From a virus: DNA of 41,703 nucleotides. The notes below the pieces were generated by a model. The model had not been told where the DNA came from, made no database searches, and was given only the letters and a program-made list of their open reading frames with translations. Of the stretch, positions 17,586 to 39,250 are shown piece after piece. The stretch covers positions 1-41,703 of IMG/VR virus record IMGVR_UViG_3300044628_001788. One strand, 5' to 3'. Position 1 is the first letter of the stretch; every line of letters starts with the position of its first letter. The position numbers and the translations under genes are program-made.

Positions 17586-19004
17586 TTAGCGTTTGAACGC
17601 CTTCAGAAAGTCGAGCGTAGCCTGAGACGATTTTGTGATAGTCTCCAGCCGTTCACTCACGACACCGTCACCCTCGGTCCTCACGTCGGAGCGAGACTGT
17701 TCAACAAAATTCTGCAGCTGTTGTGCACAGGACTTCAGAATTTCAGCCTCCCGCCCGCGGATATTTCCGGACTGGACAACTGACTTGATTCGTTCTGCAA
17801 TTCCACTCGTTGCGAATCGATTACGGGCCCCTGAGGCGAGAAACGATTTCAACTTCTCGTGCCAGTCAAGCCGGCGTCCGTTCGATACGAGTGGAGTGTA
17901 GTTGTACTTCGGGTTCTGCACGTAAGACTTCGCATACGTGTCTTCAACCTTGCCCATCATCGTCGACAATGCTTCGAGCGTGGTCGCGATAAGAGCCTCG
18001 ATTTCCGGGTTCTCGAGAGTGGTTGCACCCTCTTGGATGTTTACCCGGACTTCGTTGAGTGCGTTGTAAGCGGCTTCGACCAGCTGTGCCCCGTAAGGCT
18101 TTGGCGTCTCTTCTCCGCCGTTGCTCTTCATTTCGCCTTCTGGGTCAGCGGCTGCGTCCGGGCTTTGGCCGGGAGCTGCAGCGGCAACGTCAGGGCTTTT
18201 CCCGGGAGCGGCCGGCGGAGCGGCTGCTGCAGGAGGTGCGGCACCGGGCTTGGTCCCCGGAGGGGGAGCGTCGCCGGGTCGTTTCATTTCTTCGTCTTGC
18301 TTTTTCACTTGACCTCCGAGAGCGTCGCCCTCTTCACAGTCGCACTTCATCTTGTCGTCACAGGCTTTTGCAAACCGCATTTTTATGTCTCTCTTCGTGC
18401 TGTAACCCGGAACCTGCAGCTTGCGTTCAGGGATTACAAGCTCCAGAGACTTCGCGATACCAGCTGAGATTCTGCGGCCGGCGAGATAGCCTTTTGCAAT
18501 CACGTCTTGGACCGCCTCGGGATTGCACCCAATCGGCACCCATGACCACTCAAGCAGATACCACTTGTTGAACCTTTGGACGCCATTGACCCGGCTGGGC
18601 GAACCGATAGGGTCGAACCGAATCGAAGTCGCCCGGATGGTCTTCTCGTTCACCAGCTCAAAAATCTGTTCGGCTTCCAGAAACTTATTCGTGAAGTGAC
18701 AGGTCGCTTTGATGTTTTCGCTGGTGGGGTAAATCTCAAGCTTACCAGTTTCCTTGTCTTCTGAAATGCCAATCGGTTTGGTGAACCCATCAAAGGCATG
18801 ATTCCAGAACACAACCGGATTGAGCCGGTACTGAGTGAGGTCGCAACCGAGCGGGTCCATTGAGTCCCCGACACGGTCCACGGCAGGAGTCGAAATGATT
18901 GCCGAAGCGGTCATTTTGCTCGAGTCAACGTCGACAACGTAGCCTATCTGTGGCAGAGAAATAGTTCCGCCAGTCATCGATAAGTTGTTGTTTTCTTTGC
19001 TCAC
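17586..19004 (-). CDS. HK97-type prohead protease with scaffold-like C-terminal half
   Basis: I prefer GTG 19004, seven bases after GGGAG, over an ATG at 19055 that overlaps the previous stop but lacks a good site. Residues about 18-200 form the protease: ISTPAVDRVGDSMDP, NPVVFWNHAFDG (His69), KTIRATSIRFDP (Ser127) and LLEWSWVPIGCNPEA, fitting the His/Ser catalytic pair of the HK97 gp4/U35 family. A Cys pair region (KMKCDCEEG) and a long Pro/Ala/Gly linker follow. The last 170 residues are helical, like a scaffolding protein. Total length is 472 residues, about twice a plain protease. It should shape the prohead, then cut scaffold, capsid N-termini and possibly the tagged internal proteins. 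Confidence 0.85.
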   Translation of the reverse strand: MSKENNNLSMTGGTISLPQIGYVVDVDSSKMTASAIISTPAVDRVGDSMDPLGCDLTQYRLNPVVFWNHAFDGFTKPIGISEDKETGKLEIYPTSENIKATCHFTNKFLEAEQIFELVNEKTIRATSIRFDPIGSPSRVNGVQRFNKWYLLEWSWVPIGCNPEAVQDVIAKGYLAGRRISAGIAKSLELVIPERKLQVPGYSTKRDIKMRFAKACDDKMKCDCEEGDALGGQVKKQDEEMKRPGDAPPPGTKPGAAPPAAAAPPAAPGKSPDVAAAAPGQSPDAAADPEGEMKSNGGEETPKPYGAQLVEAAYNALNEVRVNIQEGATTLENPEIEALIATTLEALSTMMGKVEDTYAKSYVQNPKYNYTPLVSNGRRLDWHEKLKSFLASGARNRFATSGIAERIKSVVQSGNIRGREAEILKSCAQQLQNFVEQSRSDVRTEGDGVVSERLETITKSSQATLDFLKAFKR

Positions 19005-19051
19005 AGCTGGTCTCCCGCGATTAAATGTAGGCGAATCAGTCGCCCACCGCG

Positions 19052-19348
19052 TCATTGCTTTACAATGAATGTAAAGAATTCAGGGATTACCAGCGAAAGA
19101 TTCTTGTGCCTGATTATGGCGTTCACCGCGTCGAAATAGCAAAGGCGAGTCTTCGGCTGCACCCAAGCCCCGTTGTAGTAGTATTGCTTCACCGAGTCAT
19201 CGCTGTTGAGCTGCATGATAACGACCGGGTGCTTCGCGGATTTGATATACGCCACCGCCTCTCGCATTTGACGAGAGCCGAGAATCTTTGTGGTCGTGTG
19301 AATCTCAAGTTTGCCATGCCAAACTATCCCACCCTCTAACTCAAGCAC
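19052..19348 (-). CDS. Unknown small protein
   Basis: GTG 19348 follows GGAGTGAGCC, with the previous stop in the spacer. The 98-residue product starts MLELEGGIVWHGKLEIHTTT and has alternating strands (HPVVIMQLNSDDSVKQYYY, AWVQPKTRLCYF) and a helix (DAVNAIIRHKN) before a hydrophobic end. It reads as a small alpha/beta domain of unknown role. Its stop precedes the protease gene, whose start is discussed there. Confidence 0.6.
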   Translation of the reverse strand: MLELEGGIVWHGKLEIHTTTKILGSRQMREAVAYIKSAKHPVVIMQLNSDDSVKQYYYNGAWVQPKTRLCYFDAVNAIIRHKNLSLVIPEFFTFIVKQ

Positions 19349-19760: not shown

Positions 19761-19921
19761 TTCGTCCCTCTTGGTATCTTTTGTGAGCTTCCGCATTCTT
19801 TGCAGTAGTAGTACACAACCGCCGGCCTGCTGCTGCCAGCTTTACACTCCCCGCCGCATTCAGTGCATTTGACTGTCTTGGTATTCCAGCGTGGCTTGTA
19901 CTTCCGTTTCTTTGGTTTCAC
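19757..19921 (-). CDS. Small zinc-ribbon protein
   Basis: A GTG at 19921 overlaps the MuF stop and opens a 54-codon frame ending at 19757. The product is basic at its start (MKPKKRKYKPRWNTK) and has KCTECGGEC (Cys19, 22, 26) and YYYCKECG (Cys40, Cys43), the two knuckles of a zinc ribbon. The stop TGA overlaps the ATG of the following short frame. The conserved paired cysteines, coupling at both ends and filling of an otherwise empty 158-base gap support a real gene. It may bind DNA, RNA or a protein; no partner is known. Confidence 0.65.
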   Translation of the reverse strand: MKPKKRKYKPRWNTKTVKCTECGGECKAGSSRPAVVYYYCKECGSSQKIPRGTK

Positions 19922-20505
19922 TCAATCACCGTATGCTCTAAGTGACATCGACACCGCGGGTGTGCTGGAGGACCGTTCTCGAAAATGTCATCAATCAGGG
20001 CACCGCTGAGAGCTGCACAGAGCTCGCACGGCCCAGCCTCCGTTGTCCACACGCTCACGATTTTACGCCGCTTCGAAGCTTCCGCGAACAGGTTAATCAG
20101 GCCCATTGGCAAAGCTTTGTACTGAGTGACTCGAGTTTTGGCGTGCCGGACAGCCAACCCCTCGCCGATAGTCCAGAGCCGGGTCACAATCGTAACCGCG
20201 GCCGTGTTTACCCAAACCTCGTCCAGTTTATTTTCGGTCGACAGCTCAATCATTCTTAAAGCAATCTGTCGCAAAAAGTCGTCAACCTCAGAAACAGGCA
20301 TTCGCGGGATAGAGCGAATATCCAACTGAACCAGCAAGCCCTCGTAAGCGGCTTCGGCAATCTCGAGCATCAGGTCCTCGAGGTCCATCAACTCGAAACA
20401 GTCAATCTTCTGCTCATCCCTTTCGGCACAACAGCAACGCTCGACAATCGAGTTTACTTTTGCGAGCATCCGCTTTTCGTATTCCGGCCGGTTCTGTGGG
20501 TTCAC
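19918..20505 (-). CDS. MuF/SPP1 gp7-like minor head protein, short
   Basis: GTG 20505 overlaps the previous stop. The 195-residue protein ends with the signature of phage Mu F / SPP1 gp7 minor head proteins: KIVSVWTTEAGPCELCAALSG (Cys160, Cys163) and GPPAHPRCRCHLEH (His182, Cys185, Cys187), a likely metal site. The N-terminal half is helical, with Cys24-26 and Cys36. Family members are usually longer and often carry extra C-terminal enzyme domains. Here such domains may be supplied as the separate tagged proteins just upstream. The protein probably binds the portal or inner capsid in a few copies. Confidence 0.8.
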   Translation of the reverse strand: MNPQNRPEYEKRMLAKVNSIVERCCCAERDEQKIDCFELMDLEDLMLEIAEAAYEGLLVQLDIRSIPRMPVSEVDDFLRQIALRMIELSTENKLDEVWVNTAAVTIVTRLWTIGEGLAVRHAKTRVTQYKALPMGLINLFAEASKRRKIVSVWTTEAGPCELCAALSGALIDDIFENGPPAHPRCRCHLEHTVIE

Positions 20506-20713: not shown

Positions 20714-23254
20714 TTAGTCCTTTTTTGAAAGTAGTTTTCGTAGCTCTTTTAGTTTTTGCATCGAACCGGGATATGCCGGCTCGTTCAATTCTGCAATGCT
20801 CTTTCCGTCGCCGTCGTAGTAGTCTTCAAGCGGAACGGATTTCTGCGGCTTCTCGCCCTGCTCGTATCCAATTGCAACGACAATCGGAATCTTGTAGTCG
20901 ATGGCACCCTTTAACAGTTCTGGCAGCGAGCCATTAAAATTTCCCATCCATTTTGTTGCGGTGCCTGTGTTGATTACAATCTTTTCAACGTCGTTCACGC
21001 TCACGCCGCCGTGAAACTGAGCCTCGATGTAACTGTTCGTTGACCTTCCGATTCGGCCGGGTTCGTGCGGTGCGACCGAGTATTCTTTATGGTCGCTGTA
21101 CGGACTTGCTGGCAGTGCGTTGTCGAGCGAGTCTCCGAATGTAACTGTAGACCTGCCCTTGATTTCCTCTTTCAAGATATAAGCAACTTCGCCGTATCCG
21201 TCGAGTGCGATTGAGCCGTGCGAGCCATGCTCGTTGCTGACGTATCCGTAAATCGGCCGCTTCTCGTTTTCGATTTTGTGCGGCACGCCCATCGCGTTCT
21301 TTTCGACGTCCCTGCGTAGACGCTCATTTAACGCACCCTGCGAGTTGCCGGTTTCAAATTGACTCTTAAATCGCCCCGCCTCGAAAATATGCTTCGCGAT
21401 GTGCTCGGGTTGCCTGATTGCAACTCGTGAGTTCTTTAGTATTTCGTTTCTCTGCTCCTCGGCTTCCGCTTTTATTACCTCGACTGTCTTTCCAGCCAGC
21501 AGGCTGTACTTGAATTGCTTTTCAAACTCTTCGCGTAAGTGCTTCGGCGTTCCGTCTTTTATCGCTGCTAAAAGCTTGTCTCGAACAGCGTGCACGTCTT
21601 CGATTGTGTTTAAGTCATCTTCCACCAAAGAGCCGACAATCTTTGCTTTGTCGGTGTCTGATATCGCTTCGTAATCGTACATATCATCCGCTATCCGATT
21701 CAGGGTCATAAAATCATCTTGCGGTTTCGTGTACGTTACGTCCATGCGGCGGCTGTACCGCCTCAAGGCTGTGTCGATGTAATCCTGTGCAGGCTTGACC
21801 TCATACCCAATCTCACCTTCCCGAGTCAGGACCGTTATCTCGTATGGTTCGATATCGCGGAGAATCTGCATAATCCCGTGACGCTGCGAAACGAGAGCAT
21901 CGTACCCTCGAATCCTCGCTTGCTCGCGTGCGATAGCCAGCTTCGGCCGGCCGGTCTCGTAAGCCTCTTTCTGTGCCCCGTCGAGAATGCCTTGGTAGAT
22001 ATCGCTGCCGACATCCAGCACTGACATCGTCGCTTCAATTTTGTGCATCACCTTGCCCGGGACAATCTTCTCTCTCTTCGCCCCGTACAGGTAAGCGTGA
22101 ATCACCGCACTCTCAGTTTTCAGCTGGCCGTTCTCGTACTCCATAGAGGCCCGCTCTTCGCCTGCAGCGGCCGTTCCGGCAAAGCCCCGCTTTAATCCCG
22201 TCTGGGACCTATCCTCGCGGCTAAAGTGAAATACAGTGACCATGCGGGTCCCAGAAACGTCCTTCCACTCTTCATCCTCCCCAAGCTTTTTCAGGTCTCG
22301 GGAGCTCTCGGCAAACTCGGGCACCTCCATCGGCTCTGTCGGGCCGCTCAGGCTGCACTCGCCCGCTGGTCGACTTCCGCCGGGGTTGTCCTTTCCTCCC
22401 TCGCCGCCACAGTGGCCGTGATTACCAGAACCGGGCCCGCCCTTCGTGAGCCCCATCCATTTAGCAAAGGCCTTGTAGCGTCGCTTCGCGTTTCGCTCGC
22501 CGATATCCGGGACCCGAATGAAAACCGTGTTGCCAACGGAGATTGCATCCTCTCCGCCGGTTATCTCGTCGCCGGTTCGCTTGTCGTAAAAGTAAGCCGC
22601 GGTCTTCGGATTGTAGCCAACCGGGGTCCAGTCCTCGAAGTCTTCCGGCAACTCGCGAGAGGTCTCGAACTTCCCTTTCACTGTGGCAAGCGGATACTTA
22701 TTGCTCTCGCCTGTCAGAATTGTCTCCGCACCTTTTTCGTTGGAGGCAAACACAACCTCTCCGGACAATCTCACAATTGAGTCATATCCGATTGGAGTGC
22801 CGACGCTTTTCCCTCCGGTGTACTTGTGCACCGTCACGACGTACTTCCCGGTGCTGTTGTATGCGGGAATGTCAATCCGCAATGCAACGGGAGTTCCGGG
22901 CTCGAGGCTTCGGTGGGCACCGAATTTATCTTGCTTGTTCTTGCTCAGTGCTTCCTTGTACTCTTCGTCCGGGCCGAGTTTTGCGTACTCGTGATTACTT
23001 GTTCCTCCAACCGCCTCGAACTTCTCGCCGCCTCTCTCTTCAGCACTCTGCTCGCCACCACACTCGCTAGCCGGCTTGCTCCCGCCCGGGTTATTGTCTC
23101 CGCCTTCTCCACCGCAATGTCCATGATTGCCTGAGCCGGGACCGCCTTTGACAATCCCCATCCAAACAGCGAATCCTTTGGCGTGCGACTTCTTTTTTCG
23201 CTTACGCTCCTGCTCGAACGACTCTGTCGGAAATGCCCAAGCTTTCTTTGCCAC
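20714..23254 (-). CDS. 846-residue tagged protein with two tags and C-terminal ART/DUF3626-like domain
   Basis: The GTG at 23254 comes two bases after the previous stop. A basic N-terminus leads to module 1 (36-67), a strand-rich domain (about 75-265; ALRIDIPAYNSTGKYVVTVH, GYDSIVRLSGEVVFAS), module 2 (271-301), a domain with VTVFHFSREDRSQTGLKRG (about 330-480), and helices. Then come AGRFKSQFETGNSQG (about 620), EKRPIYGYVS, RSTVTFGDSL and SYIEAQFHGGVSVNDVEKI (about 740). The last four motifs match the order in DUF3626 and related domains of phage minor head proteins, which I recall as ADP-ribosyltransferase-fold. The FHFSR domain could be another ART-like or toxin-related domain. Like the two upstream proteins it probably belongs to a set of head-borne effectors; its function is not proven. 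Confidence 0.75.
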   Translation of the reverse strand: MAKKAWAFPTESFEQERKRKKKSHAKGFAVWMGIVKGGPGSGNHGHCGGEGGDNNPGGSKPASECGGEQSAEERGGEKFEAVGGTSNHEYAKLGPDEEYKEALSKNKQDKFGAHRSLEPGTPVALRIDIPAYNSTGKYVVTVHKYTGGKSVGTPIGYDSIVRLSGEVVFASNEKGAETILTGESNKYPLATVKGKFETSRELPEDFEDWTPVGYNPKTAAYFYDKRTGDEITGGEDAISVGNTVFIRVPDIGERNAKRRYKAFAKWMGLTKGGPGSGNHGHCGGEGGKDNPGGSRPAGECSLSGPTEPMEVPEFAESSRDLKKLGEDEEWKDVSGTRMVTVFHFSREDRSQTGLKRGFAGTAAAGEERASMEYENGQLKTESAVIHAYLYGAKREKIVPGKVMHKIEATMSVLDVGSDIYQGILDGAQKEAYETGRPKLAIAREQARIRGYDALVSQRHGIMQILRDIEPYEITVLTREGEIGYEVKPAQDYIDTALRRYSRRMDVTYTKPQDDFMTLNRIADDMYDYEAISDTDKAKIVGSLVEDDLNTIEDVHAVRDKLLAAIKDGTPKHLREEFEKQFKYSLLAGKTVEVIKAEAEEQRNEILKNSRVAIRQPEHIAKHIFEAGRFKSQFETGNSQGALNERLRRDVEKNAMGVPHKIENEKRPIYGYVSNEHGSHGSIALDGYGEVAYILKEEIKGRSTVTFGDSLDNALPASPYSDHKEYSVAPHEPGRIGRSTNSYIEAQFHGGVSVNDVEKIVINTGTATKWMGNFNGSLPELLKGAIDYKIPIVVAIGYEQGEKPQKSVPLEDYYDGDGKSIAELNEPAYPGSMQKLKELRKLLSKKD
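22352..22444 (-). repeat. Cys-tag module 2 in 846-residue protein
   Basis: Residues 271-301 read KGGPGSGNHGHCGG, EGGKD, NPGGSRPA and GEC after AKWMGLT. It divides the first added domain from the FHFSR domain. The same protein therefore looks like two tagged units joined end to end. Confidence 0.9.
23054..23149 (-). repeat. Cys-tag module 1 in 846-residue protein
   Basis: Residues 36-67 read KGGPGSGNHGHCGG, EGGDN, NPGGSKPA and SECGG. Cys positions 12 and 30 are kept. The module follows AVWMGIV, the same W-h-G-h-h junction as in module 2 of this protein. Confidence 0.9.
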
Positions 23255-23256
23255 TT

Positions 23257-24861
23257 CTACTTCCCGCCCTTTCGTGTTTTCTCGACGAACGCCTGAGCTT
23301 CGGCACGCTTGCCGCGTCGCTTCTCAATCTCATACCTGATTGCGGACTCTGCGTGCTTATCGCTCAACCGGTCGCTGTTGCCGAGTCCCATTAGATAGAC
23401 TCTCGAGTTCTGGTCCCAATCTCCTCCGAGAATGACGTACTCCTCTTCACCCGCGTCGTTTGCTCCGTACGAAGGGACAGAGAAAATCTTTGCCTTCGGG
23501 ATGTCGACGCCAACCAGCATTACCGGGTCAACGAAGTCCATTCTATATCCGTCTTCGTCCGTGGTCTCGAGTATGTCGCTAATTTCGCTGTGCAGCGGAT
23601 GGTCGCTTTCAATCTTTCCGAACGCCGACGCAGAACTGAAGCTTGTCGAAGAACTTTGAAGTGCAGATGATTTCAAGGTGATGTCGGTTCGTCGCAACAG
23701 GCCCTCGACTTCCGTCGTTGTAAAGTCAATCTCAGAATCCTCGCGAGGCTTTATCCCGCGGAAAAGAATCATGCTTTCCGGTTCGTCTCGCAGTGCCAAT
23801 TGGGCAACCTCCCAAGTCGCCTTAATCATTGCTGCGTCTGTTTTGTAGTTTGTGTCGGCGATAGAGTCGATACGCACACCGCCTTGGTTTCTATTTAGAA
23901 AATCCTTGACTCCAGAATAATTGCCATCGATTGATACGTCGTTCTCGCGTCCACGCATGGTTGATGGTGCACCAAGCTCTTTCGAGGCAACGTGTGCCAT
24001 CCAGTGACCGAGCGGACTCTGCGAGTCGTTGAGCCAGCTTTGCCAGTACGCTTGAAAGTTTTTCTTTGCGTCCGCGAAGTCTGCGTCGGGCCCCATTAAG
24101 TGTCTGGCACGAGCCTCCATCAGCGATTCCATTACCGGCTGCAAGCCTTGAATATCCTTCGAAGCAGCCGCCCTTCCGCCGTGGCGAATATCATTCAAGT
24201 CAATCTTACCTTGGCTTTTAGCCCAAAAGTCGCGGGCCTCAAGTTCTCTAAAATCGATTGACTGAGCTGCTCGTTCCGAAAGAGCCAAGATTAGATTGAT
24301 TTCGTTTTCTTTTGAGATTCCAAAGCGAGCCCAGTGCCCGTCGGCTATGCTACGCTCTACCGTGTCGAGGAAAACATCGCCCAAGCTTTTGTCTTTGTAG
24401 TCCTCGGCAATTCCGCTGCTTACCAGCTCGAAAGCGTTCTGGTAGTAGCTCTCGAGGCCGTTGCTGATTCCTTGCTTGTGCCTGCCCCAGAACGACAATC
24501 CTAAATCAAACTCTCGAGTAAGCTTGTCTGTTGCCGCTGTCGACATCCTCGAAACGTTATTCGCAACAGCCATCGTGCCAATAGCACGCAATGCGTATTC
24601 CTTGTCGCCGCGGTGCTTCCACCACTGACTCAAGTCAGCTTCCGGACGTCCGGCTAAATGGTCTTCGAGCCAATCGAAGAACTCATCGCCAAGAGCGGTT
24701 GCGTTGTCTGGCTTTGCAGTTGACGTGCCGCACTCACCAGCCGACGACGAGCCGCCGGGATTGCCGGGGCCTCCTTGCCCGCCGCAATGCCCATGGTTGC
24801 CGGAACCCGGACCACCCTTGATTAAGCCCAGCCAATGACTAGAAGATTTTAAGGTCGTCAC
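23257..24861 (-). CDS. Tagged ADP-ribosyltransferase-like protein
   Basis: The GTG at 24861 gives 534 residues and overlaps the previous gene by 23 bases. The N-terminus SSHWLGLIK leads into a Cys-tag module at 15-45. Residues about 50-340 are helical with no recognised domain. The C-terminal part has the signature of R-S-E ADP-ribosyltransferases: MILFRGIKP with Arg368, QSSSTSFSSASAFG with Ser405-Thr406-Ser407, and GEEEYVILGG with Glu472-Glu474 for the E-x-E loop. Such enzymes transfer ADP-ribose from NAD to arginine or other targets. T4 injects comparable enzymes (Alt) from the head to modify host RNA polymerase, a precedent for a virion-carried effector. The substrate here is unknown. Confidence 0.8.
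   Translation of the reverse strand: MTTLKSSSHWLGLIKGGPGSGNHGHCGGQGGPGNPGGSSSAGECGTSTAKPDNATALGDEFFDWLEDHLAGRPEADLSQWWKHRGDKEYALRAIGTMAVANNVSRMSTAATDKLTREFDLGLSFWGRHKQGISNGLESYYQNAFELVSSGIAEDYKDKSLGDVFLDTVERSIADGHWARFGISKENEINLILALSERAAQSIDFRELEARDFWAKSQGKIDLNDIRHGGRAAASKDIQGLQPVMESLMEARARHLMGPDADFADAKKNFQAYWQSWLNDSQSPLGHWMAHVASKELGAPSTMRGRENDVSIDGNYSGVKDFLNRNQGGVRIDSIADTNYKTDAAMIKATWEVAQLALRDEPESMILFRGIKPREDSEIDFTTTEVEGLLRRTDITLKSSALQSSSTSFSSASAFGKIESDHPLHSEISDILETTDEDGYRMDFVDPVMLVGVDIPKAKIFSVPSYGANDAGEEEYVILGGDWDQNSRVYLMGLGNSDRLSDKHAESAIRYEIEKRRGKRAEAQAFVEKTRKGGK
24727..24819 (-). repeat. Cys-tag module in ART protein
   Basis: Residues 15-45 read KGGPGSGNHGHCGG, QGGPG, NPGGSSSA and GEC, with Cys at module positions 12 and 30 exactly as in the portal copies. 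It lies almost at the N-terminus, preceded by HWLGLI. Confidence 0.9.
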
Positions 24862-25042
24862 TCTTCTCGCCCTTGTCTTTCTTCGCTGAGCCGTCGTCGT
24901 TCAAAGGAAAAATCTCTTCGTCGCAGTCAACGAAAAATCCGCTTTCTCGTGCGAGCTTGTCCAGTCCGTCTTGGTACTTTTGCTCCTCTGCTCGAAACGC
25001 TTCGTAAGCCTCATCGCCAAGCGGGTCTTTTTCTTTCGCCAT
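24839..25042 (-). CDS. Small acidic protein in the tagged cassette
   Basis: ATG 25042 overlaps the previous stop (TAATG) and follows GGGGAGGTAACGAGTA. The 67-residue product is highly charged: DEAYEAFRAEEQKYQDGLDK is a likely helix, followed by an acidic GFFVDCDEEIFPLNDDGS and a Lys/Asp-rich tail. No family is recognised. Its place between two putative toxin-domain proteins raises the possibility of an inhibitor or chaperone, but an acidic composition alone does not show this. Confidence 0.65.
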   Translation of the reverse strand: MAKEKDPLGDEAYEAFRAEEQKYQDGLDKLARESGFFVDCDEEIFPLNDDGSAKKDKGEKSDDLKIF

Positions 25043-26730
25043 TACTCGTTACCTCCCCAAATTCGTGTTCCAACCAACGCCCCACGCTTTACCCGCGGTG
25101 CAACGCTTTGCCTGTTCGCAACAGTTGCAGCGGCAAAATCTCGCAACTGCTTTCGGTCCACTTGAATCGCCTCTTTCGGAAACTCGCTAACAAGCTTCGG
25201 CTTTCCCTTCGTCGAATCAATGAACACGAATTTCGCTGAAGGGTTATTCTTGTTTTGGTTGTAAAAATTGAAATGATTCTTTCCGCCGATTCCATAAGAA
25301 TCAGCAAAAACAGAAGCGTCGACCATCCGGCCGTCCGACGGGTCGTTTGCACGCTTCACCACCCCGCGTTCCGGGTCCGCCCAAGAAACGTATGGGTCGG
25401 CGTGAACGAAAACGTACGTGACCTTATGCCCATGCTTTTCGGCGAGGCTTTGAATCCACGGGTTCTCGGTTGCGTTCTGGTCTCCAGCTGAATCCCAGAC
25501 AGCTCCAGCGGCCCCGGCGAGCGGTGCAACTTCTGGGACGTTTTTCTGAGCGTAGCCCTTGCCGGCCCCGCAACCACCAACAGTCACGAGAATATCGCTT
25601 CCAGCAGGCAATGACGCGACGTGCTTTTCAAACGCCCGCTTTGCAATCGCGTTGGCTGTTTGGTGCAGCGACAGATTATAGCGGGCCCGCTTCTCTGCAC
25701 GCTTGTCGAGGTCTGCATCGTTCCAAGCTGAGCTGAGCTTTTTCGCGGCGTCGGTCTCAAACGTGTTCGGTTTGTCCGAGTTCTTAACCATTTCCGCGTA
25801 AGCGTTCGCCATTTCATCAGGGAAGCTTTCGAAGGTCCGGGCAAACCGCTCTTCAACGTGCCTCTCCTCTTGATTGAGGTTCGGGAGCCGCGGGACTTCC
25901 GGGGGAGGCGGAACAGCCATTGCCGGCACGCCAACACGAGCCGCGTCGGTAACGCCGTTGCCGTCACCGTCTTGCTCGACGAACGGATTGTACTCTCCAG
26001 CCCCAGTCGGCGGAGGGACAGCTGATTCCTGACGGATGCCGTTTGTTGCTATTTCAACCTGACGCTTCATCCAAGCATCACGCTCTTCAGCGGTCTGGAT
26101 TTCAAAGACTTCGCCAGTCTTGATATCGTACCCGGCGAGCTGGCCCTTTTCTTTTCCAGCTGCGATAGCTTCTTCTTTCGAGTCGAATACCTTGGTCGCG
26201 TCAAGATAAACCTTACCGTCGCCTTGGGCGTTGTGCCATCCGCCAACGTACACGCTGTCGTCATTCCCCCAAGCGTCTTTGGTTGAGTCGCGATATTTCT
26301 CGACCGTCTCCATGCTGACCTTATCCATGTCAACCACCCGCTCTTGCTCGGGAAAGATTGACACGGCAAAACCTTCAGTCGGAGTCTTGCCGGTCTTCGG
26401 GTGATATGTAAAGCCGCCGGTATTTCGCAGCGTCTCAATCGGGTTCGTCTCAGTGTGCCAAGCGTTCTTGCCGTCAGGCTTATTGTCCTGAGCCGCGGAA
26501 GAGCCGCCGGCAGTCGCCGCCCCAGCTTCCCCGGTCGCACAGGTGTTGCCGGGCTGGAAACCGCCGCCACCTTGGGCGTTTGCCCCGCAATCGGATTTCG
26601 GCTCGTCAGGAGCGGCCTTCACGATTCCGCGAAACGATTTCCGCGTCGTGTCCGGGGTCTCTGCGAGCTTTCGTATCAACTCGCGAAACTGCTCGTCACT
26701 GGCTGTCAAAATTGCTTCAAATACGTTCAT
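25042..26730 (-). CDS. Tagged multidomain protein with zeta-toxin-like kinase
   Basis: Of two adjacent ATGs, 26730 is better spaced from GGAGGAA. The 562-residue product has a helical N-terminus, then SFRGIVKAAPDEPKSDCG and GGGGFQPGNTC (residues 38-64), a divergent relative of the Cys-tag module with Cys at 11 and 27. A domain near 85-205 (NTGGFTYHPKTGKTPTEGF, VGGWHNAQGDGKVYLDATKV) recurs in phage head-associated proteins from memory, with no known role. The C-terminal part has Walker A TVGGCGAGKG (Lys391) and HADPYVSWADPERGVVKRA, fitting a zeta-toxin/UDP-GlcNAc-kinase-type P-loop enzyme. Zeta toxins phosphorylate a cell-wall precursor or related substrate. I infer a virion-carried effector or host-takeover enzyme; no antitoxin is seen. 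Confidence 0.75.
   Translation of the reverse strand: MNVFEAILTASDEQFRELIRKLAETPDTTRKSFRGIVKAAPDEPKSDCGANAQGGGGFQPGNTCATGEAGAATAGGSSAAQDNKPDGKNAWHTETNPIETLRNTGGFTYHPKTGKTPTEGFAVSIFPEQERVVDMDKVSMETVEKYRDSTKDAWGNDDSVYVGGWHNAQGDGKVYLDATKVFDSKEEAIAAGKEKGQLAGYDIKTGEVFEIQTAEERDAWMKRQVEIATNGIRQESAVPPPTGAGEYNPFVEQDGDGNGVTDAARVGVPAMAVPPPPEVPRLPNLNQEERHVEERFARTFESFPDEMANAYAEMVKNSDKPNTFETDAAKKLSSAWNDADLDKRAEKRARYNLSLHQTANAIAKRAFEKHVASLPAGSDILVTVGGCGAGKGYAQKNVPEVAPLAGAAGAVWDSAGDQNATENPWIQSLAEKHGHKVTYVFVHADPYVSWADPERGVVKRANDPSDGRMVDASVFADSYGIGGKNHFNFYNQNKNNPSAKFVFIDSTKGKPKLVSEFPKEAIQVDRKQLRDFAAATVANRQSVAPRVKRGALVGTRIWGGNE
26539..26619 (-). repeat. Divergent Cys-tag module
   Basis: Residues 38-64 keep the GIVK junction, a Cys at 11, a glycine run, F-Q-P-G-N and a second Cys at 27, but lack GGPGSGN and the His residues. 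It occupies the same N-terminal place as the module in the next two large proteins, so I treat it as a distant form or functional analogue. Confidence 0.5.
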
Positions 26731-26746
26731 CATTTCCTCCACGCCA

Positions 26747-26775
26747 ATCTTAACCCGAGGCGGGCTGTATCTCAA
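26747..26775 (-). promoter_or_regulatory. Candidate promoter before zeta-toxin-like gene
   Basis: On the minus strand, TTGAGA (26775-26770) and TAAGAT (26752-26747) are 17 bases apart, with five and four consensus matches. It sits in the 78-base gap after the portal gene, an unusually long gap in the head module. The predicted start of transcription would fall almost on the GGAGG site, giving a very short leader, so the call is weak. Confidence 0.22.
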
Positions 26776-26808: not shown

Positions 26809-29800
26809 TTATTCTTCCACGTCTTCTGAGGGGTCTTTTAGCATTGACTCAATGCCCTTGGACCTCGCTTCGCGAAGTGCCGATAAGTAACTGTTAGCGG
26901 ACCCGCGTTTGTTTCCGACGCCAGCCTCGTACCACCGAACTTTCTCGAGCATCCACACCGCAGCTTGAACTTCTCGAACTGAAAACTCGTGGCCTCGTGA
27001 CTTTAAGACGCGAGAAGCGTGTTCGGCTGCAAGCTGGTTTGCTGTTCGCGACAAAGAACTGCCCGGGGAGTTGACGACGTCCTTTGTTTTCTTAACTGCT
27101 GTATTCAGTGCGGTTGTAAATTCGTCTCGCTTGATTTCCTTTTGCTTTGAATTTGGTCCGCTCGAGATATGCAGCGAAGCCAAGCGGCCCAACGCTGCCT
27201 TTGTCTTGTCGTCAACGTCTTGCCCGCTCGCAAGTGCATTGACTGCGTTTTTTAGCTTGGCGACAGTCATGCCAACTTTCTCGGCGTTTGCCTTTGAGGG
27301 GGAGTGCTCGGATACATTCCCCCACGCCTCGCGAACCTGCTCTTCAGAGAAGCCAATGCGGCCCGTGATGCGATTGATTGTTCTGGTAAGCCACCTATCC
27401 TGAGTCAACAGGTCATCGATTCCTCCGAGATTTGCGTGGAACGCTCCAATCTTCGGGCCAAACACAAACGACACTGGAACGACTTGGTCCTTAAAGGCAT
27501 TCGAGCCAGAGAACTTCAATCCAACGCTAGATGCGATTTGCTCAAGCTTTCTGACAGTGATTTCTTTGTTGAGAAAATCAAATGCCTGCTTCTCGCCGCC
27601 AAGTGTCTCTATCATTTTCTGATAAGACTTGATATTTCCGCCAATCACGTCGTATGCTTTCGACGCAATCAGCTCTTTTAGCTTTGCGTCGCTTTTTGGA
27701 AACGACCCGTTCTTCGCGTAGAAGTCATACAGGTTTCGAGTTGACGCCAAGTTTTCAGCGGGGCTCGCCTCTTGCGAAGTTAAAGCGAGAACGCCAACAA
27801 ACAGAGCTTTGCCTTGTTCTGTCTTTAGAAGTTCTCGCGATTTTTCTGAGAAGTTGAATTTTCCGTCGTCCTCGGAAAGCTTCTGGGCGACTGTCTCGAT
27901 TTCGCTGTACCACTTCGGCCAAGTCGAGTCGATTTCATTTGCCTCCAGCGTCATGTCGGCGAGGATTTCGCCGGCACGCTCAACGTTATCCTTTAGGATT
28001 TTCTTCCCATCGAATAGAGGCATTGGCTCGGAAGCCTTGTCGAGCTTGGCAGCAAAGTCAACGACGTCAATCTTCGTTCCTTTTTCTCGACTAAGCTCGT
28101 TGTCTTTCAAAAACTGTGTCAGGTTTTGGTTCGGGCTCGTGTAGCGTTCACGCTCTTTAACGTCACCCTCGCTCCATTGGATTTTCGAAAGCTCCTCTTG
28201 AGGGCCGGCTACTATCTCCATTGTTCGGCCAGTCGCCCGTGCTGTGACTTTCTTTCCGCGGCTCATGTAAGTCACAGTATCTCCGCCGCACTCGTCTGCA
28301 GGCTTCGAGCCCCCCGGGTTTCCTTCTCCACCGTCTCCGCCGCAATGCCCGAAGTTTCCAGAGCCAGCTCCGCCCTTGGCGTAGTCATACCACCGGACCC
28401 ACTTTTTGCCGTGCGACTTCACGAAGCCGTTGAAGTACCGCTTGACGAGCCAGCTTGCACCGGACCCGCCAGACTCTCCGTAGCTGTCGATGTACTCTCG
28501 AAGCTTTTCGGCGTGCTCTCGTTTCGCGACGATGTAGTGTGCCGAATTCTTGCCGCCGCCAGTGACAGCCGCTACATACTTTCCGTCAACCTGAGCGAGA
28601 GTCTGCGTCAGCTTATCGTAAAGCTCTTGCCTGTTCGGCTCGATTGCGGTGTACGTCAGGACGTCGATGTCTTCGTTTTGCATTCTCGCAAGAAGTGCTG
28701 CAGATACTCCGCGAAACACTTCAAACTGCTCGCCTCGGCCGCGGCCTGTAATCGAAACGCTTCCGCCCTTGTCGGTAAAAATCATGTCTTCAGTTTTGCC
28801 GCTAATCCCGTGGTCGGCATACGAAGCTTCATTGACCTCTAAATGGAATTCGCTTCCACCTCGAGTCACGAGCTTCAGCTTGGCACCGTCACTTGCTGAA
28901 TACCAAGTGCTCGGCTCCATCGAGCCCCAGCTCATATTCTCGCCGCTGGATTCCTGCACACGCTCGTCATACGTGTTGTTGACGTAATCGTTTTCCCATT
29001 CAGAGCGAATCGAATCGATGTATGACTCGTACCCCTCGGCTGCGTTGCGTGCTTCGCTCTTGAGGTCTTCGAAGACTTCTTGAACTCGCCCGGAAAGCTC
29101 GGCATACTTTTCTTGGTCGTCGCCGGCTTCGAGTTTAATCGCGTCCTCAAAGTCTGCTTCGCGGTCTTCCCAGAATGATTCGAGTGCACGCTCGATGCTT
29201 ATGTTGGTCGTGAACTCTTCCTCTGTCGACTCAAGGAAGCTGTCAATCTCTGTTCGGATGTCTCGCGGCAAGTCGCTGTAGTCGCTGACCTGCTCTTTCA
29301 TTTTTTGAGCTGCCTCTGTTGCTGCCTCTCCCGAGTATTCGTATTCCGGGAAAGCCTCAGAAGCCTCCATGCGAAGGTCTTCCATGATTGCGTCTTCGTC
29401 AATCGTTGACTCGCCGTCGGCAAACGAGACCTTAGAAGCTCTCTCTTTGATGTCCTTGATGAGCTTGTTTTCTTTGTACTGCGTGCCGTCGACTGGCTCT
29501 GGTGCAACTCGGTTTGTTTTTTCTTTCGGTGCTGCGGCCGGACTCTCAGTGCTCTGTGCCGGCGGAGTTGGTGACGGAGGTGAGGCGGTCGGGTCTGCGA
29601 GTGCGTTCACTGCAATTCGTGCCGCGTCTCCGGGCTCGAACCGGGCCCAGTTTCCACCCTGTGACGCTCTCATCAGATTGATTGACTGGACAATCTGAGT
29701 CTCATTCAGGCCTTGAGCTGCGAGCGTGCTGGCGAGCCACTTTGCCCCATCCTCGTTTTCTGCAGTGTAGTTTCCAACTGCCTGCGTGATAAGCGTCCGC

Positions 29801-32013
29801 GTTCGGTAGCTTGCCTCTCCACCTGAACCAAGCGTGTCCAAGTGTGCCTGAGCTTCCTCGGCAGAGATTCCGTAAAAGTTATCGGTTGCGAGTGCACGAG
29901 CTCGGGCCGCGTCTCCCCGTCCGGAGTATGCGGCAATTGCGGCGTTTCGTTCTTCCGCGAAAAAATCTTGGTAGCGAGCCTGCAACGAACTGCCCGTCGG
30001 AACCCAGCCGCGGTCCTCGAGAAACTTCCGCTCCCGGTCGTTTGCCGTCGGCCCGTTCCCGAGCTCGCTTTCTCGGTCAGTCCCGATACGCTCCGAGACG
30101 TACTGGAATGCCTCTTCTGATAGGATTCTCCGCGACCGTGGGTCGATTCCGTAAGCGTGCGGATTTGCCGCCGAAAACCGCCCGGGCTTTTGCTGCGTCG
30201 GAACGGCTTCTGCCGGCTGGGCCTGCGGGGTCGCTGGAGGGGCCTGCTGGGCCGCTGGAGGCGTTTGCGTCGCTGGAGCGGCTTGTGGCTGGGCTGGAGC
30301 GTTGCCGCATTCCTCGGCTGGCCTAGAGCCTCCCGGCTCGCCGTCGTCCGGAGTCCCGCCGCAGTGGCCGTGATTGCCTGAGCCGGGCCCACCCTTCACG
30401 ATTCCGTACTTCTCGAGCTCTTTGGCGAATGCCTTTGCAATCTGGGAAGCGAGCCGCGGCTTTCCGCCCTGCATTGCCCGCCCGAGCGGCTGCTTGGTCG
30501 GCTTGGTCATCATCGCTGCAGCGTCTTCAGGGTTCGTCCCCTGAGGCATCGGCATTCCATCCGGGCCGACAGGCTGTCCGTCTGGCCCAACCATCCCGGG
30601 CATTGCCGCAGGGGCAGCAGCAGCACCGCAAATTTCTTCGTCACGCTCGTCGCCAAACGGCTCGCGACCGCGAAGCTTTCGAAGCTCGCCCTTCGTCAGC
30701 ACGCCAGCCGTGATGTCGGTCTGGATTTGCTTTTCGATGAGGTCTTCGTCATTAAACTTTTTCGCCGTGTAGCAGATTTCAACTTCCCGGCCCTCGTCCT
30801 CTGAGTAGAGGGCAGAGTCCTCGTCCCCGAGCACTTTGAGAATCGGCTGGACCGAGAGCTCGATGAACTGCAGAAGCGGAGCATAGAGGCCCTCGCGGCC
30901 TGTCGGGCTGGTCAAGCCAACCGCCGCCAAAGGGACACCGTGAATCGCAAGTTGTGCGTCCCGGAGCTGCTCGAACCCATCCCCGTAAGCCATGTCCTTT
31001 GGAGCTGTGGTCAGCGGTGTAATCGTCTTGGCAGGGGTAACGAACATCGCTTTCCCGTGCTTGTCCACACCGGCGTATCGCTCGTTGAAGATTGCCTCAC
31101 CGCGGCGGATACTGGTCTCGTCAACCTCTCCATCCAGACCAATAACAACCGACGGGTCCGGCCCGTTTTTCAGGTGGTTGTGCCGGCTCTTGTCGACCAT
31201 TTCGCTTGTGTCAGTCCAAAGAGCCGACGCGGATATTGGCGATTGACCGTCGTCTTTGTATTTCGGGTGCGGAAACTTGATGACCTGCACGTCTTCAGCT
31301 GGGATGGTCTTTCCAAATGCAGCCTCGAGCGAGCCTGTCATGTAGAAGCCAGCCTCATTGGCGTACCGGGCCCCTTCCGGCAGAACATACCATCCGCCCC
31401 GCGGAAGCTCACGAGAAGGTGGGCGTGGTTGTGCAAGGCAAGTCGGGATGACATATCGCTCGATAATCTTCCCAGTGAGTTTACTGCGAACGTTCCAAGT
31501 GATTGCCCGGCCTGTGAGGCAAAGCTGAATTGCACGCTCGCCGTTGAACGCCGAAAGAGTTTGTGCCGGGTTCGGTCGCTTCAACCGCTTCATTATCGGG
31601 TCGAAGTGAGGCATGACAACCATGCTCTCTTGCTGCTCGTTGATGCCCTTCGTGAATCCTCCGGGCATTTGCGGGACCGGCTGCTGGCCGTCCATCACTG
31701 GAGCTGGAGGTGCGGCTTGCGGTTTCTGTAGACTCGGAACAACCAGCCGACGCTCATACACTTCCACACCGGCCTGAATGACCTGCTTGTACACTGCGTT
31801 GATTGCGATGTAATGCCAGCCGGCGTACTTCTCGGTTTCCGCTGCGTGGTCGCTCGACCATCCACCCGGGAGCACGCCCGCCATTGCGGAACGAAGACCT
31901 GTAAGGTTCATCGCTGGCATCGACTTGACATTGTCTGCAGTCTGAGGCGAGCTGGACTTATTGCGGCTGTCCATTTCAGCCATCACGGCGGCGATTTGAC
32001 TTGCACTTGGCAT
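26809..32013 (-). CDS. Giant portal fusion protein with two Cys-tag modules
   Basis: ATG 32013 follows TTAGGACGAAC. Residues 1 to about 460 are an HK97-type portal: SDHAAETEKYAGWHYIAIN, VDKSRHNHLKNGPDPS, HGVPLAAVGLTSPTGREGLY and TKGELRKLRGREPFGDERD. Portals here are usually 400-550 residues; this one has 1734. After a Gly/Pro/Met linker come Cys-tag module 1 (540-570), a Pro/Ala-rich and acidic helical section with FRGVSAALLARM near 1100, module 2 (1213-1243), and a last domain with LALTSQEASPAENL (about 1410), GPKIGAFHANLGG (about 1520) and WMLEKVRWYEAG (about 1690). The last domain resembles an uncharacterised phage domain from memory. Because portal C-termini face the capsid interior, the extra domains are probably internal. 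They may be released by proteolysis. Confidence 0.85.
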   Translation of the reverse strand: MPSASQIAAVMAEMDSRNKSSSPQTADNVKSMPAMNLTGLRSAMAGVLPGGWSSDHAAETEKYAGWHYIAINAVYKQVIQAGVEVYERRLVVPSLQKPQAAPPAPVMDGQQPVPQMPGGFTKGINEQQESMVVMPHFDPIMKRLKRPNPAQTLSAFNGERAIQLCLTGRAITWNVRSKLTGKIIERYVIPTCLAQPRPPSRELPRGGWYVLPEGARYANEAGFYMTGSLEAAFGKTIPAEDVQVIKFPHPKYKDDGQSPISASALWTDTSEMVDKSRHNHLKNGPDPSVVIGLDGEVDETSIRRGEAIFNERYAGVDKHGKAMFVTPAKTITPLTTAPKDMAYGDGFEQLRDAQLAIHGVPLAAVGLTSPTGREGLYAPLLQFIELSVQPILKVLGDEDSALYSEDEGREVEICYTAKKFNDEDLIEKQIQTDITAGVLTKGELRKLRGREPFGDERDEEICGAAAAPAAMPGMVGPDGQPVGPDGMPMPQGTNPEDAAAMMTKPTKQPLGRAMQGGKPRLASQIAKAFAKELEKYGIVKGGPGSGNHGHCGGTPDDGEPGGSRPAEECGNAPAQPQAAPATQTPPAAQQAPPATPQAQPAEAVPTQQKPGRFSAANPHAYGIDPRSRRILSEEAFQYVSERIGTDRESELGNGPTANDRERKFLEDRGWVPTGSSLQARYQDFFAEERNAAIAAYSGRGDAARARALATDNFYGISAEEAQAHLDTLGSGGEASYRTRTLITQAVGNYTAENEDGAKWLASTLAAQGLNETQIVQSINLMRASQGGNWARFEPGDAARIAVNALADPTASPPSPTPPAQSTESPAAAPKEKTNRVAPEPVDGTQYKENKLIKDIKERASKVSFADGESTIDEDAIMEDLRMEASEAFPEYEYSGEAATEAAQKMKEQVSDYSDLPRDIRTEIDSFLESTEEEFTTNISIERALESFWEDREADFEDAIKLEAGDDQEKYAELSGRVQEVFEDLKSEARNAAEGYESYIDSIRSEWENDYVNNTYDERVQESSGENMSWGSMEPSTWYSASDGAKLKLVTRGGSEFHLEVNEASYADHGISGKTEDMIFTDKGGSVSITGRGRGEQFEVFRGVSAALLARMQNEDIDVLTYTAIEPNRQELYDKLTQTLAQVDGKYVAAVTGGGKNSAHYIVAKREHAEKLREYIDSYGESGGSGASWLVKRYFNGFVKSHGKKWVRWYDYAKGGAGSGNFGHCGGDGGEGNPGGSKPADECGGDTVTYMSRGKKVTARATGRTMEIVAGPQEELSKIQWSEGDVKERERYTSPNQNLTQFLKDNELSREKGTKIDVVDFAAKLDKASEPMPLFDGKKILKDNVERAGEILADMTLEANEIDSTWPKWYSEIETVAQKLSEDDGKFNFSEKSRELLKTEQGKALFVGVLALTSQEASPAENLASTRNLYDFYAKNGSFPKSDAKLKELIASKAYDVIGGNIKSYQKMIETLGGEKQAFDFLNKEITVRKLEQIASSVGLKFSGSNAFKDQVVPVSFVFGPKIGAFHANLGGIDDLLTQDRWLTRTINRITGRIGFSEEQVREAWGNVSEHSPSKANAEKVGMTVAKLKNAVNALASGQDVDDKTKAALGRLASLHISSGPNSKQKEIKRDEFTTALNTAVKKTKDVVNSPGSSLSRTANQLAAEHASRVLKSRGHEFSVREVQAAVWMLEKVRWYEAGVGNKRGSANSYLSALREARSKGIESMLKDPSEDVEE
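28285..28377 (-). repeat. Cys-tag module 2 in portal fusion
   Basis: Residues 1213-1243 read KGGAGSGNFGHCGG, then an acidic/glycine spacer, NPGGSKPA and DEC. Two positions differ from the commonest form (Ala for Pro at 4, Phe for His at 9), while His11, Cys12 and Cys30 are kept. It follows KWVRWYDYA and marks the boundary before the last domain of the fusion. Confidence 0.9.
30304..30396 (-). repeat. Cys-tag module 1 in portal fusion
   Basis: Residues 540-570 of the portal fusion read KGGPGSGNHGHCGG, a variable Asp/Pro segment, PGGSRPA and EEC. The module is 31 residues, with His at 9 and 11 and Cys at 12 and 30. It is preceded by YGIV, matching the G-I/L-x-K junction of the other copies, and separates the portal domain from the first added domain. 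Confidence 0.9.
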
Positions 32014-32020
32014 GTTCGTC

Positions 32021-33376
32021 CTAAGCTACATAGACAGTTTTTTCTTGGGTCAGTGCTTTGTACGCACCTGACAGGGCATCGACTTGGTCGTCGTGCTGTG
32101 CATTGGGAAACATAATCAATTCGTCGATAAATTCGCGAGTCCAATGCCCTTTCCTGAGGCGAAGTCGCCCAACTCCCGCCACACTGGCGATACCGTCGAT
32201 GGAATTCACTCGGGCCATTTTACTGTCTTTCGAGCGTATCCCGCGAAAGTTGTGGCCAGTCAGCATCCGCCCCATCGAATCAATCAGCGACTCGCCGCTG
32301 GCCCCGGGCTCTTTTTCCATGCGGATTTTGACGTTGTAGCCGTCAAGCTGGGCGACCTGTTTAATAATGCGGTCGCGTTCGTACGGTGCCCATCGGCCGC
32401 GAACAATATCCATGACGTAGAAATTCCCGTCGTCACAGAGCGAAAGCAGCAACCCGACAGTGAAGTCAGAGTCAGAATTCTTTGTTGCCGCCAAGTCCCA
32501 GAACCTGCAGGACTTCACCACCTGAGGGAAGACGTCGTAAAACTGGTTGAAGAATTCGAGCTTGAAGAGACCGCCCTCCGCCGGCGTCGGCCTTTGCTGG
32601 TAAAGAGCGGACCACCAGAACGGGCCAACGGTCCCGCGGATATTCTCGAGCTGAGAGAGTGGAATGCGTTCGGGCCAGAGCGGCTCGCCCGGGGCCCGGC
32701 CCAAAACGTCATGCTCTTCCGCGATTGCCGGGAAGCTTACCACCTCCCACGGTTCGACGTTCGCGAGCTCTCGGATAATTCGTCCAGCGAGGTCATCCAT
32801 GTGCCATCTGGTCTGTACGACAACCATCACCCCTCCGGGCTCGAGCCGGCTGTACGCCGTGGACCGAAACCAGTCCCAGTTTTTATTTCGCAGCGTTTCG
32901 CTTTGTGCCTCCTCGGAGTTTTTGATTGGGTCATCGATGATAAACAAGTGAGCACCGCGACCGGTAATTGGACCGCGAGCACCTGCTGTTTTCACCCCGC
33001 CTCTGTGCCCGTCGATTTTCCAGAACGAGCTTGACTTCTTCGTGGGGTCGACTCGCACCCCGAGATAGTTTTCGTCGTTGGCGATTAGGTCTCGAGCTTT
33101 TCCGCCGAACTCCGCCGCAAACTCTGCTTCGTAACTCGTGAGAATGACTTGATTGTCCGGGAACATTCCGACGTACCACGCGGGCAGGTGCTCTGAGATA
33201 TAAAAGCTCTTGCCGTGCCGCGGTGGCATTGAAACAACAATACGCTTCGAGCCCATCCCGTTTAACGCTCGGACGATAAGGTCATCCAAGTATGCGATGT
33301 GCCGCGGTATCTTGAACTTACCTTCTGTTCGTTTTCGTGCCCACAGTGCAGGGCTTGCGATGTCAGCTCCTAGCAT
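32021..33376 (-). CDS. terL: Terminase large subunit
   Basis: This 451-residue protein is the DNA packaging motor. The ATPase half has Walker A SMPPRHGKS (49-57), Walker B LFIIDDP (144-150) and the coupling motif TRWH (189-192). The nuclease half has RFWDLA with Asp294, Glu354 in MEKEPGASGES and HDDQVDA (428-434), the acidic residues that bind metal in RNase H-fold terminase nucleases. Its length is normal for the family. It docks on the portal, translocates DNA into the prohead using ATP, and cuts the concatemer. The ATG overlaps the stop of the nuclease gene, and the portal gene follows after seven bases. Confidence 0.95.
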   Translation of the reverse strand: MLGADIASPALWARKRTEGKFKIPRHIAYLDDLIVRALNGMGSKRIVVSMPPRHGKSFYISEHLPAWYVGMFPDNQVILTSYEAEFAAEFGGKARDLIANDENYLGVRVDPTKKSSSFWKIDGHRGGVKTAGARGPITGRGAHLFIIDDPIKNSEEAQSETLRNKNWDWFRSTAYSRLEPGGVMVVVQTRWHMDDLAGRIIRELANVEPWEVVSFPAIAEEHDVLGRAPGEPLWPERIPLSQLENIRGTVGPFWWSALYQQRPTPAEGGLFKLEFFNQFYDVFPQVVKSCRFWDLAATKNSDSDFTVGLLLSLCDDGNFYVMDIVRGRWAPYERDRIIKQVAQLDGYNVKIRMEKEPGASGESLIDSMGRMLTGHNFRGIRSKDSKMARVNSIDGIASVAGVGRLRLRKGHWTREFIDELIMFPNAQHDDQVDALSGAYKALTQEKTVYVA

Positions 33377-38702: not shown

Positions 38703-39248
38703 TTAAATCTCTTGCGAGTCGCCAGTTCTTCTGACTGCAAAGACATCAACACCAAGAGTCTTTGCCACACGAATAACCAGCCCTATCTCGCAGGTTTCTT
38801 TTCCGTTTTCAAACTCTGACACAAACCGCACCCCGACCCCAGCTACTTCTGCCAATTCGGCCTGAGTCAATCCATGTTTTGCACGGATAGTCCTGCAGTA
38901 GAGTCCGAGATTTGATGGAGTGTCTATTTTTTGACTTGCCTTTCCTATGAACCTGTTTGTTATCAGTGAGGTTTCTTGCTTGTCAATTATCGCTTCGAAT
39001 TGACGAACAATGACGTCGTGCGGGCAGTTGAACCAGTCTCGAGAACTAGGAACCGCAAACTCCACCAAGGAGGTCCGGGCAATGCTTTCAACCGCGAAGC
39101 AATCGTCCACGCCCTTGAACCAGCGGAGTATTGATTCGCCCGGAAGCGTAGCCCGAATAGTGGCAAACCTTTCTTCGACGTTGCTTGTTGCACCAAGCTT
39201 TGACAGGCCCGGGCACCAGTCATTCGTAATGACGTAGACGTAAGACAT
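38703..39248 (-). CDS. GIY-YIG-like domain fused to HipB-like HTH
   Basis: The 181-residue product joins two domains. Residues 2-75 resemble the T5orf172/MUG113 branch of the GIY-YIG superfamily: SYVYVITN for the GIY strand, LSKLGATSNVEER for the second strand with its conserved Arg, an acidic VESIARTSLVE helix and SSRDWF. Residues 114-170 are a Cro/C1-type helix-turn-helix closest to HipB, with LTQAELAEVAGVGVRFVSE, ENGKETCEIG and a terminal LGVDVF. The start is ATG 39248, 11 bases after GGAG; a TTG two codons earlier is less likely. GIY-YIG domains cut DNA in homing enzymes, but the T5orf172 branch is poorly known. I infer a DNA-binding regulator or nuclease. Confidence 0.75.
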   Translation of the reverse strand: MSYVYVITNDWCPGLSKLGATSNVEERFATIRATLPGESILRWFKGVDDCFAVESIARTSLVEFAVPSSRDWFNCPHDVIVRQFEAIIDKQETSLITNRFIGKASQKIDTPSNLGLYCRTIRAKHGLTQAELAEVAGVGVRFVSEFENGKETCEIGLVIRVAKTLGVDVFAVRRTGDSQEI

Positions 39249-39250
39249 CG

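Follow-up and report, generated by a model that had tools for sequence, protein, structure and literature searches.

A phage portal protein carrying C-terminal cargo domains delimited by a recurring glycine-rich tag

The viral DNA described here is IMG/VR record IMGVR_UViG_3300044628_001788 (positions 1 to 41,703), a stretch of 41,703 nucleotides that we refer to throughout as the window. It encodes an unusually long portal protein of 1,734 residues, in which an HK97-type portal domain is followed by two cargo blocks, A and B, each of which is preceded by a copy of a short, glycine-rich tag. The gene is read as a single frame on the minus strand, from an ATG at position 32013 to a stop at 26809 with no internal stop codons, and its parts occur in the order portal, tag 1, cargo A, tag 2 and cargo B. 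Fusions of portals to single effector domains are already known, and the tag-delimited carriage of several cargoes is a new variation on this arrangement. The tag and its regular placement, neither of which turned up in the open-access literature searched, are the new part of the finding.

26809..32013, minus strand: portal-cargo fusion open reading frame (ORF), 1,734 residues; open and in the same order in related phages L002, L126 and L125
30667..31602, minus strand: portal domain PF04860, residues 138-449; Pfam E=2.4e-22, above the curated cut-off
30304..30396, minus strand: tag 1, residues 540-570, KGGPGSGNHGHCGGTPDDGEPGGSRPAEECG
28378..30246, minus strand: cargo A, residues 590-1212, consisting of A1 (590-829) and A2 (830-1212)
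28285..28377, minus strand: tag 2, residues 1213-1243, KGGAGSGNFGHCGGDGGEGNPGGSKPADECG
26812..28284, minus strand: cargo B, residues 1244-1734; all-helical, common to giant polyvalent phage proteins

The fused portal and its relatives

Assignment of the N-terminal part to the HK97-type portals (PF04860) is based on a Pfam Phage_portal score of 80 bits, against a curated cut-off of 39.1, and on a PHROG portal match (E=4.8e-23). The gene context is that of a portal, since the gene for TerL adjoins the ORF and genes for a protease-like protein (17586-19055) and the capsid protein (16284-17567) lie downstream. The portal part stops near residue 460 and is followed by a linker of approximately 80 residues that leads to tag 1. 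About 1,270 residues lie beyond the portal. The computed mass is 188.7 kDa per chain, of which the extension accounts for 138 kDa, or 1.66 MDa in total if the 12 copies expected from general knowledge of portals are assumed. No credible matches were found when the portal, A and B were compared by sequence with the PDB. The original prediction, made from the DNA letters alone, had proposed a portal part that stops near residue 460, a pair of tag modules, two or more additional domains and a last domain resembling an uncharacterised phage domain. All four points are supported, as is the fusion itself, and the two tags begin at residues 540 and 1213.

Three further distinct phages carry the same fusion. 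The version in L002 is 1,776 residues long and has a portal 99% identical to that of the window, whereas the versions in L052/L126 (1,807 residues) and L125 (1,835 residues) have portals that are 72% and 71% identical, with tags that start after residues 551 and 1246 and after residues 560 and 1259, respectively. In all three the frame is open over its 1,776-1,835 codons, and the order of the parts and the places of the tags are kept. Because this layout is shared, a sequencing error that hides a stop codon after the portal, which had been named as a possible refutation of the fusion, is excluded. Assembly or sequencing artefacts might also join a normal portal to a downstream gene, but the same fusion recurs in contigs from separate metagenomes with portals that are 70-99% identical, and also in a relative with only 44% identity. 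We found no points in favour of such an artefact and consider its probability negligible. Likewise, production of a separate, normal-sized portal through a frameshift or an internal start is ruled out, since the four genomes were found to have in common neither a slippery heptamer nor, close to either of the tags, a start codon with a Shine-Dalgarno match.

The more distant relative is found in L226 (and also in L227 and L228), where a portal that is 44% identical to that of the window forms part of a fusion of 1,794 residues (L226:2605-7986). None of A1, A2 and B is present in this protein. Its cargo is instead marked by five tags of an alternative form (type 2, described below) at residues 517, 717, 1096, 1368 and 1539, each located before a separate domain, and includes ADP-ribosyltransferase (ART) sequence of the ART-PolyVal family in two stretches (Pfam E=1.1e-42). 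JAB-like, third ART-like and HExxH stretches were read by eye. The L226 fusion is a cleaner example of tag-delimited portal cargo than that of the window itself. Another portal relative, with 39% identity (L229:8944-10457), is split over several frames, which could reflect either sequencing errors or a decayed gene, and its tags are located in separate downstream ORFs.

A conserved tag on portals, other head proteins and effectors

The widespread, type-1 form of the tag has the motif GGPGSGNxGHxGRPGxVGGS, and the cysteine-bearing version in the window is a lineage form of it. The type-2 form reads CGxnxxGGGFQPGNxC. Viral contigs scanned for GGPGSGNxGHxG yielded at least 119 stretches with at least 177 tagged ORFs, and a scan with the type-2 pattern yielded 28 stretches. 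Searches by tblastn with the tag gave no matches, probably through low-complexity masking. The invariant core of the type-1 tag cannot serve as evidence of conservation because it follows from the search pattern. At positions outside that pattern, 203 distinct copies among the matches listed carry R in 80%, P in 85% and G in 98% of cases, then V or R, and then GGS in 94-98%.

Five type-1 tags occur in the window: two in the portal ORF, one in a 534-residue ORF and two in an 846-residue ORF. Their cores are identical at 12-14 of 14 residues but at only 30-36 of 42 nucleotides, and therefore selection acts on the protein. That codons differ while residues are kept also rules out a role for the tag as a DNA recombination seed, or its origin by recent duplication. 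The cysteines by which the tag had originally been defined are not a general feature, as Cys follows GH in approximately 2% of the 203 copies and the orthologous tags of L126 and L125 lack it (relatives carry GHSGRPGQVGGS at the same places), and a metal-binding Cys module is thereby ruled out. A basic amphipathic helix that precedes the tag in the window was considered as a part of the signal and rejected, since the net charge upstream of tags is generally no different from background (-0.31 versus -0.30). With a narrower tag pattern, matches were found among bacterial genomes in Clostridia, Desulfosporosinus and metagenome-assembled genomes labelled Terriglobus and Sulfuricaulis. If these genomes are binned correctly, the tag spans several phyla. 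Tagged genes are also carried by a prophage of the cultured Desulfosporosinus sp. PR (L210). The tag strings were not found in the open-access literature (subscription journals were outside the search).

A Pfam survey of 152 non-redundant tagged ORFs among the matches listed indicates which proteins bear the tag. Up to 26 are portals (a sum over four portal families in which some matches may be counted more than once), and other head proteins are represented by MuF (10) and DUF2213 (6). The effector families include ADP-ribosyltransferase exoenzyme (16), ART-PolyVal (4), DRAT (4), NUDIX (10), 2'-5' RNA ligase-like or 2H (6) and Zeta toxin (3), together with GNAT and one case each of Ntox50, glutamine deamidase and Acb1 (below cut-off; L119). 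Portal-NUDIX-tag fusions are found in L021, L043 and L213, a portal-2H-tags fusion in L042, and a portal-2H-tag-tag-Zeta fusion in L119. Zeta with a preceding tag thus ends a portal fusion in L119 and is free-standing in L040. Similarly, DUF3626 is free-standing in the 846-residue ORF of the window, fused to MuF in L034 and present also in L015, and some MuF-effector fusions bear the same tag (L034, L062). Because a given effector family is preceded by the same kind of tag whether it is free-standing, MuF-fused or portal-fused, tag plus effector is the recurring unit, and the original suggestion that fusion to the portal serves to fix stoichiometry is not the best reading.

There is one tag per domain. 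The 63 tag-to-tag distances in 45 multi-tag ORFs have minima of 113 residues (type 1) and 171 residues (type 2), and random placement of as many tags would leave a pair fewer than 90 residues apart in 30% of the ORFs for type 1 and 40% for type 2. Because some of the ORFs are related, this comparison should be read as descriptive, short of a strict test.

Several other proteins were noted during this survey. A tagged ORF of 1,274 residues (L048:7816-11637) matches intein splicing, DUF559 nuclease, HEAT repeat and DRAT families, and intein matches occur in three tagged ORFs. Faecalibacterium phage FP_Brigit, a prophage of a cultured host (L222:5995-8481), encodes a portal joined to NUDIX and a further C-terminal domain. 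The junction in this protein differs from the tag (HPRDENGQF, HPRDENGQFAEGEG) and is perhaps a third tag form; the paper describing the phage reports no mass spectrometry. The portal of Fyn8, which is annotated as ‘Acb1-like’, was considered as a cultured example of a fusion and ruled out, as it is a normal portal of 456 residues.

Cargo domains, their exchange and neighbouring genes

The structure prediction that had been proposed as a check was carried out with AlphaFold2. For A, the model is poor (predicted local distance difference test, pLDDT, 54.7). The block is acidic, A1 is predicted by this poor model to be helical or disordered, and the last ~150 residues of A2 appear GNAT-like, by inspection only. 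Only the four related phages yielded relatives of A1 and A2. For B, the model is confident (pLDDT 84.6; predicted template-modelling score 0.81) and all-helical. No catalytic family was assigned to A or B; the ART-PolyVal stretches noted above are present in the L226 relative.

A profile search of viral contigs with B gave 143 relatives, of which 80 were kept. Outside the portal-fusion phages, almost all of these are located in untagged ORFs of 2,000-4,000 residues, typically near residues 800-1,300, and two annotated relatives lie among the structural genes of podoviruses. Among viral structures (BFVD), the best matches to B are ART-PolyVal-like, Large polyvalent protein associated domain, RelA/SpoT and NAT_SF entries, with a best E of 9e-14. 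B is therefore a domain common to known polyvalent proteins, and the chain as a whole, with portal, A1, A2 and B, also resembles such proteins in combining several unlike domains. The window's B does not reach the cut-off for DUF7178, which four of 29 relatives match with E up to 8e-5.

Residues Lys278 and Asp296 of B (P0002 numbering), which are 18 apart, are invariant in 29 sequences and presumably recall the active sites of glycosylases. The best PDB fold match of B is the DUF2419 (Qng1) queuine-salvage enzyme 7ugk (E=0.018, probability 0.94), an enzyme that is structurally similar to DNA glycosylases (PMC9406330), and several DUF2419 chains are in the top list. However, the template-modelling (TM) scores of 0.29/0.38 are low, and HhH-GPD glycosylases, compared at profile level by means of a five-sequence HhH alignment, gave a negative result (probability 0.13%). 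For these reasons, we treat ‘glycosidase-like’ as no more than a lead. Neither the window nor the control genomes contained a match to the DUF2419 family, and B, which resembles it in fold, is at most a candidate member.

Comparison of the window with L002 shows that identity falls along the chain, from 99% in the portal and 98% in A1 to 75% in A2 and 46% in B. The B of L002 is 59% identical to that of L125, though the L125 portal is only 71% identical to the window's. The same abrupt drops in identity, with about 95-100% giving way to about 30-60%, are seen within the 534- and 846-residue ORFs. Judged from these comparisons, cargo alleles look to be replaced while the carrier remains constant, a pattern that would be expected of effectors engaged in conflict.

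The original prediction was correct in placing two tags in the portal ORF, to which must be added the further tagged ORFs that follow the portal. These and the other relevant genes of the window are as follows.

32021..33376, minus strand: terminase large subunit, directly upstream of the portal
25042..26775, minus strand: 577-residue ORF that follows the portal; single type-2 tag (CGANAQGGGGFQPGNTC, 26539-26589); P-loop-like GGCGAGKG motif
23257..24861, minus strand: 534-residue ORF with a type-1 tag near its N-terminus (24727-24819) and an ART-like C-terminal half
20714..23254, minus strand: 846-residue ORF with type-1 tags at 23057-23149 and 22352-22444, and DUF3626 and L5 gp82-like regions
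19918..20505, minus strand: MuF-like head protein, 195 residues; weak matches (PF04233 E=0.02, phrog_4728 E=0.003)
17586..19055, minus strand: prohead-protease-like protein that is a candidate processing enzyme; matches phrog_80 (head maturation protease) with E=2.3e-11
16284..17567, minus strand: major capsid protein; PF05065 E=1.5e-30, TIGR01554 E=1.5e-43

The 577-residue ORF has orthologues in L002, L052 and L125, and since it matches no Pfam family above cut-off, we list it as an unnamed nucleoside triphosphatase-like cargo candidate. The 534-residue ORF matches DRAT below cut-off (E=0.0068), and its R-S-E motif was read by eye. In the 846-residue ORF, DUF3626 is located near the C-terminus (E=2.7e-12) and the L5 gp82 match is below cut-off; relative to L002, its N-terminal half is 93-100% identical and its C-terminal half strongly diverged. 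Elsewhere in the window (38703-39254), a 183-residue protein combines an N-terminal GIY-YIG-like region, recognized by eye, with a C-terminal helix-turn-helix regulator (phrog_1373, E=4e-9).

A portal as a putative carrier of injected proteins

We favour, at somewhat better than even chances, the interpretation that the fusion is a portal-anchored effector polyprotein whose cargo is held inside the head and freed at or near the tags. In known phages the portal C-terminus faces the capsid interior, and therefore the extension is probably internal. The portal C-terminus would then serve as a cargo bay, and the portal ring would bring the cargo into the prohead. The tags would mark the module junctions and act as a loading element, a processing element or both, with the prohead protease of the phage (or another protease) cutting at or near them to free A and B from the ring. 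Once free, the domains would exit together with the DNA and serve in the newly infected cell as effectors or counter-defence proteins, and the next three tagged ORFs would be free-standing cargo of the same system. Release is needed in this scheme because an uncut domain would stay behind with the portal. We favour cutting at or near the tags, with subsequent injection, because B belongs to the polyvalent proteins and the L226 cargo includes ARTs.

A number of observations weigh against this interpretation. No protease consensus was identified in the tag, and A1 and A2 have no tag between them. In some ORFs the tag lies near the C-terminus, outside a strict rule that tags precede cargo: in L102:6801-9122 it is found at residue 747 of 774, only 27 residues from the end, so that a tag can close a protein without cargo behind it, and in L016 it is located at the contig end. 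Moreover, the phage of the window is known from a metagenomic virus contig alone, and A2 and B are no more than candidate effectors.

Other functions for the tag and the extension can be envisioned. If the tag were a docking signal only, which binds a head component and thereby brings free-standing cargo into the head, then A and B would remain uncut and tethered inside the head. Its position near the N-termini of free-standing effectors, which have no structural partner in cis, is compatible with docking, as is conservation of the tag copies at the protein level beyond the needs of a linker. However, because the fusion already places the cargo, docking tags ahead of each internal domain (five in L226) would be redundant, and tethered domains would be unable to enter the cell, in contrast to polyvalent proteins, for which roles after ejection are proposed. 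We consider docking alone unlikely.

The extension could also be a structural or assembly part rather than an effector, such as an internal core or a scaffold surrounding the portal that would order the DNA or the head, given that the cargo is large, that A is acidic and A1 possibly helical or disordered, and that two diverged lineages both have extensions of about this size. This seems quite improbable for a cargo that differs wholly between related portals, includes enzyme families such as ART, has in B a member of the polyvalent proteins, and swaps alleles under a near-identical portal. Even more modestly, the tag might be merely a flexible linker, as its richness in glycine and its placement between domains would allow, but linkers drift, whereas this tag retains fixed residues outside the search pattern and also heads free-standing proteins, and we find the linker explanation very hard to credit.

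The proposed polyprotein has partial counterparts among known systems. Phage T4 uses a capsid-targeting sequence and cleaves its internal proteins. In SPN3US, head proteins are reported to be cut by the prohead protease (PMC7411985). The likeness would lie in a short signal that marks head proteins and in cutting by a prohead protease, which we infer for the window, whereas the tag differs from the T4 sequence in being glycine-rich and internal as well as N-terminal. Fusions of portals to PBECR, 2H and InPase domains have been described for polyvalent phage proteins (Iyer et al. 2017, PMC5512222), and those of Nudix and ART to MuF or portal were described in 2022 (PMC9503650). Cargo on a portal is consequently less unusual than was originally supposed. 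The fusion resembles polyvalent proteins, which likewise hold several unlike domains per polypeptide, are encoded among head genes and are expected to be packaged and injected, but here the portal is the carrier and there are two tag-delimited cargo blocks (five in L226). The repeated tag was not found in that 2017 paper under the terms looked for. A second comparison is with MuF polymorphic toxins and head-packaged ARTs (PMC5576092, PMC3482391, PMC9503650), among which Nudix, 2H and ART fusions to MuF or portal are on record. They are similar in joining a head protein to a variable C-terminal effector, and they differ in that the portal is the carrier here and several cargo blocks are split by tags.

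By extension, both forms of the tag may constitute a general virion-cargo signal that directs effectors into heads, releases them there, or both, and that operates in the same way whether it is borne by a portal, a MuF protein or a free-standing enzyme, across phages of several bacterial phyla. We give this broader proposal slightly less than an even chance, and the tagged enzymes of other phages are probably carried in heads. If the proposal is true, the injected cargo of a phage could be read from its genome by means of the tag. Many phage proteins are thought to be injected with the DNA, yet only in a few phages is it known how such proteins are selected and set free. A tag common to portals, MuF proteins and dozens of effectors would therefore give a simple rule for finding injected proteins, counter-defence enzymes included, in uncultured phages, and it is a short element that is open to testing. 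As an interchangeable carrier of tag-delimited modules, the portal also shows how cargo evolves, with alleles that change while the carrier stays nearly constant.
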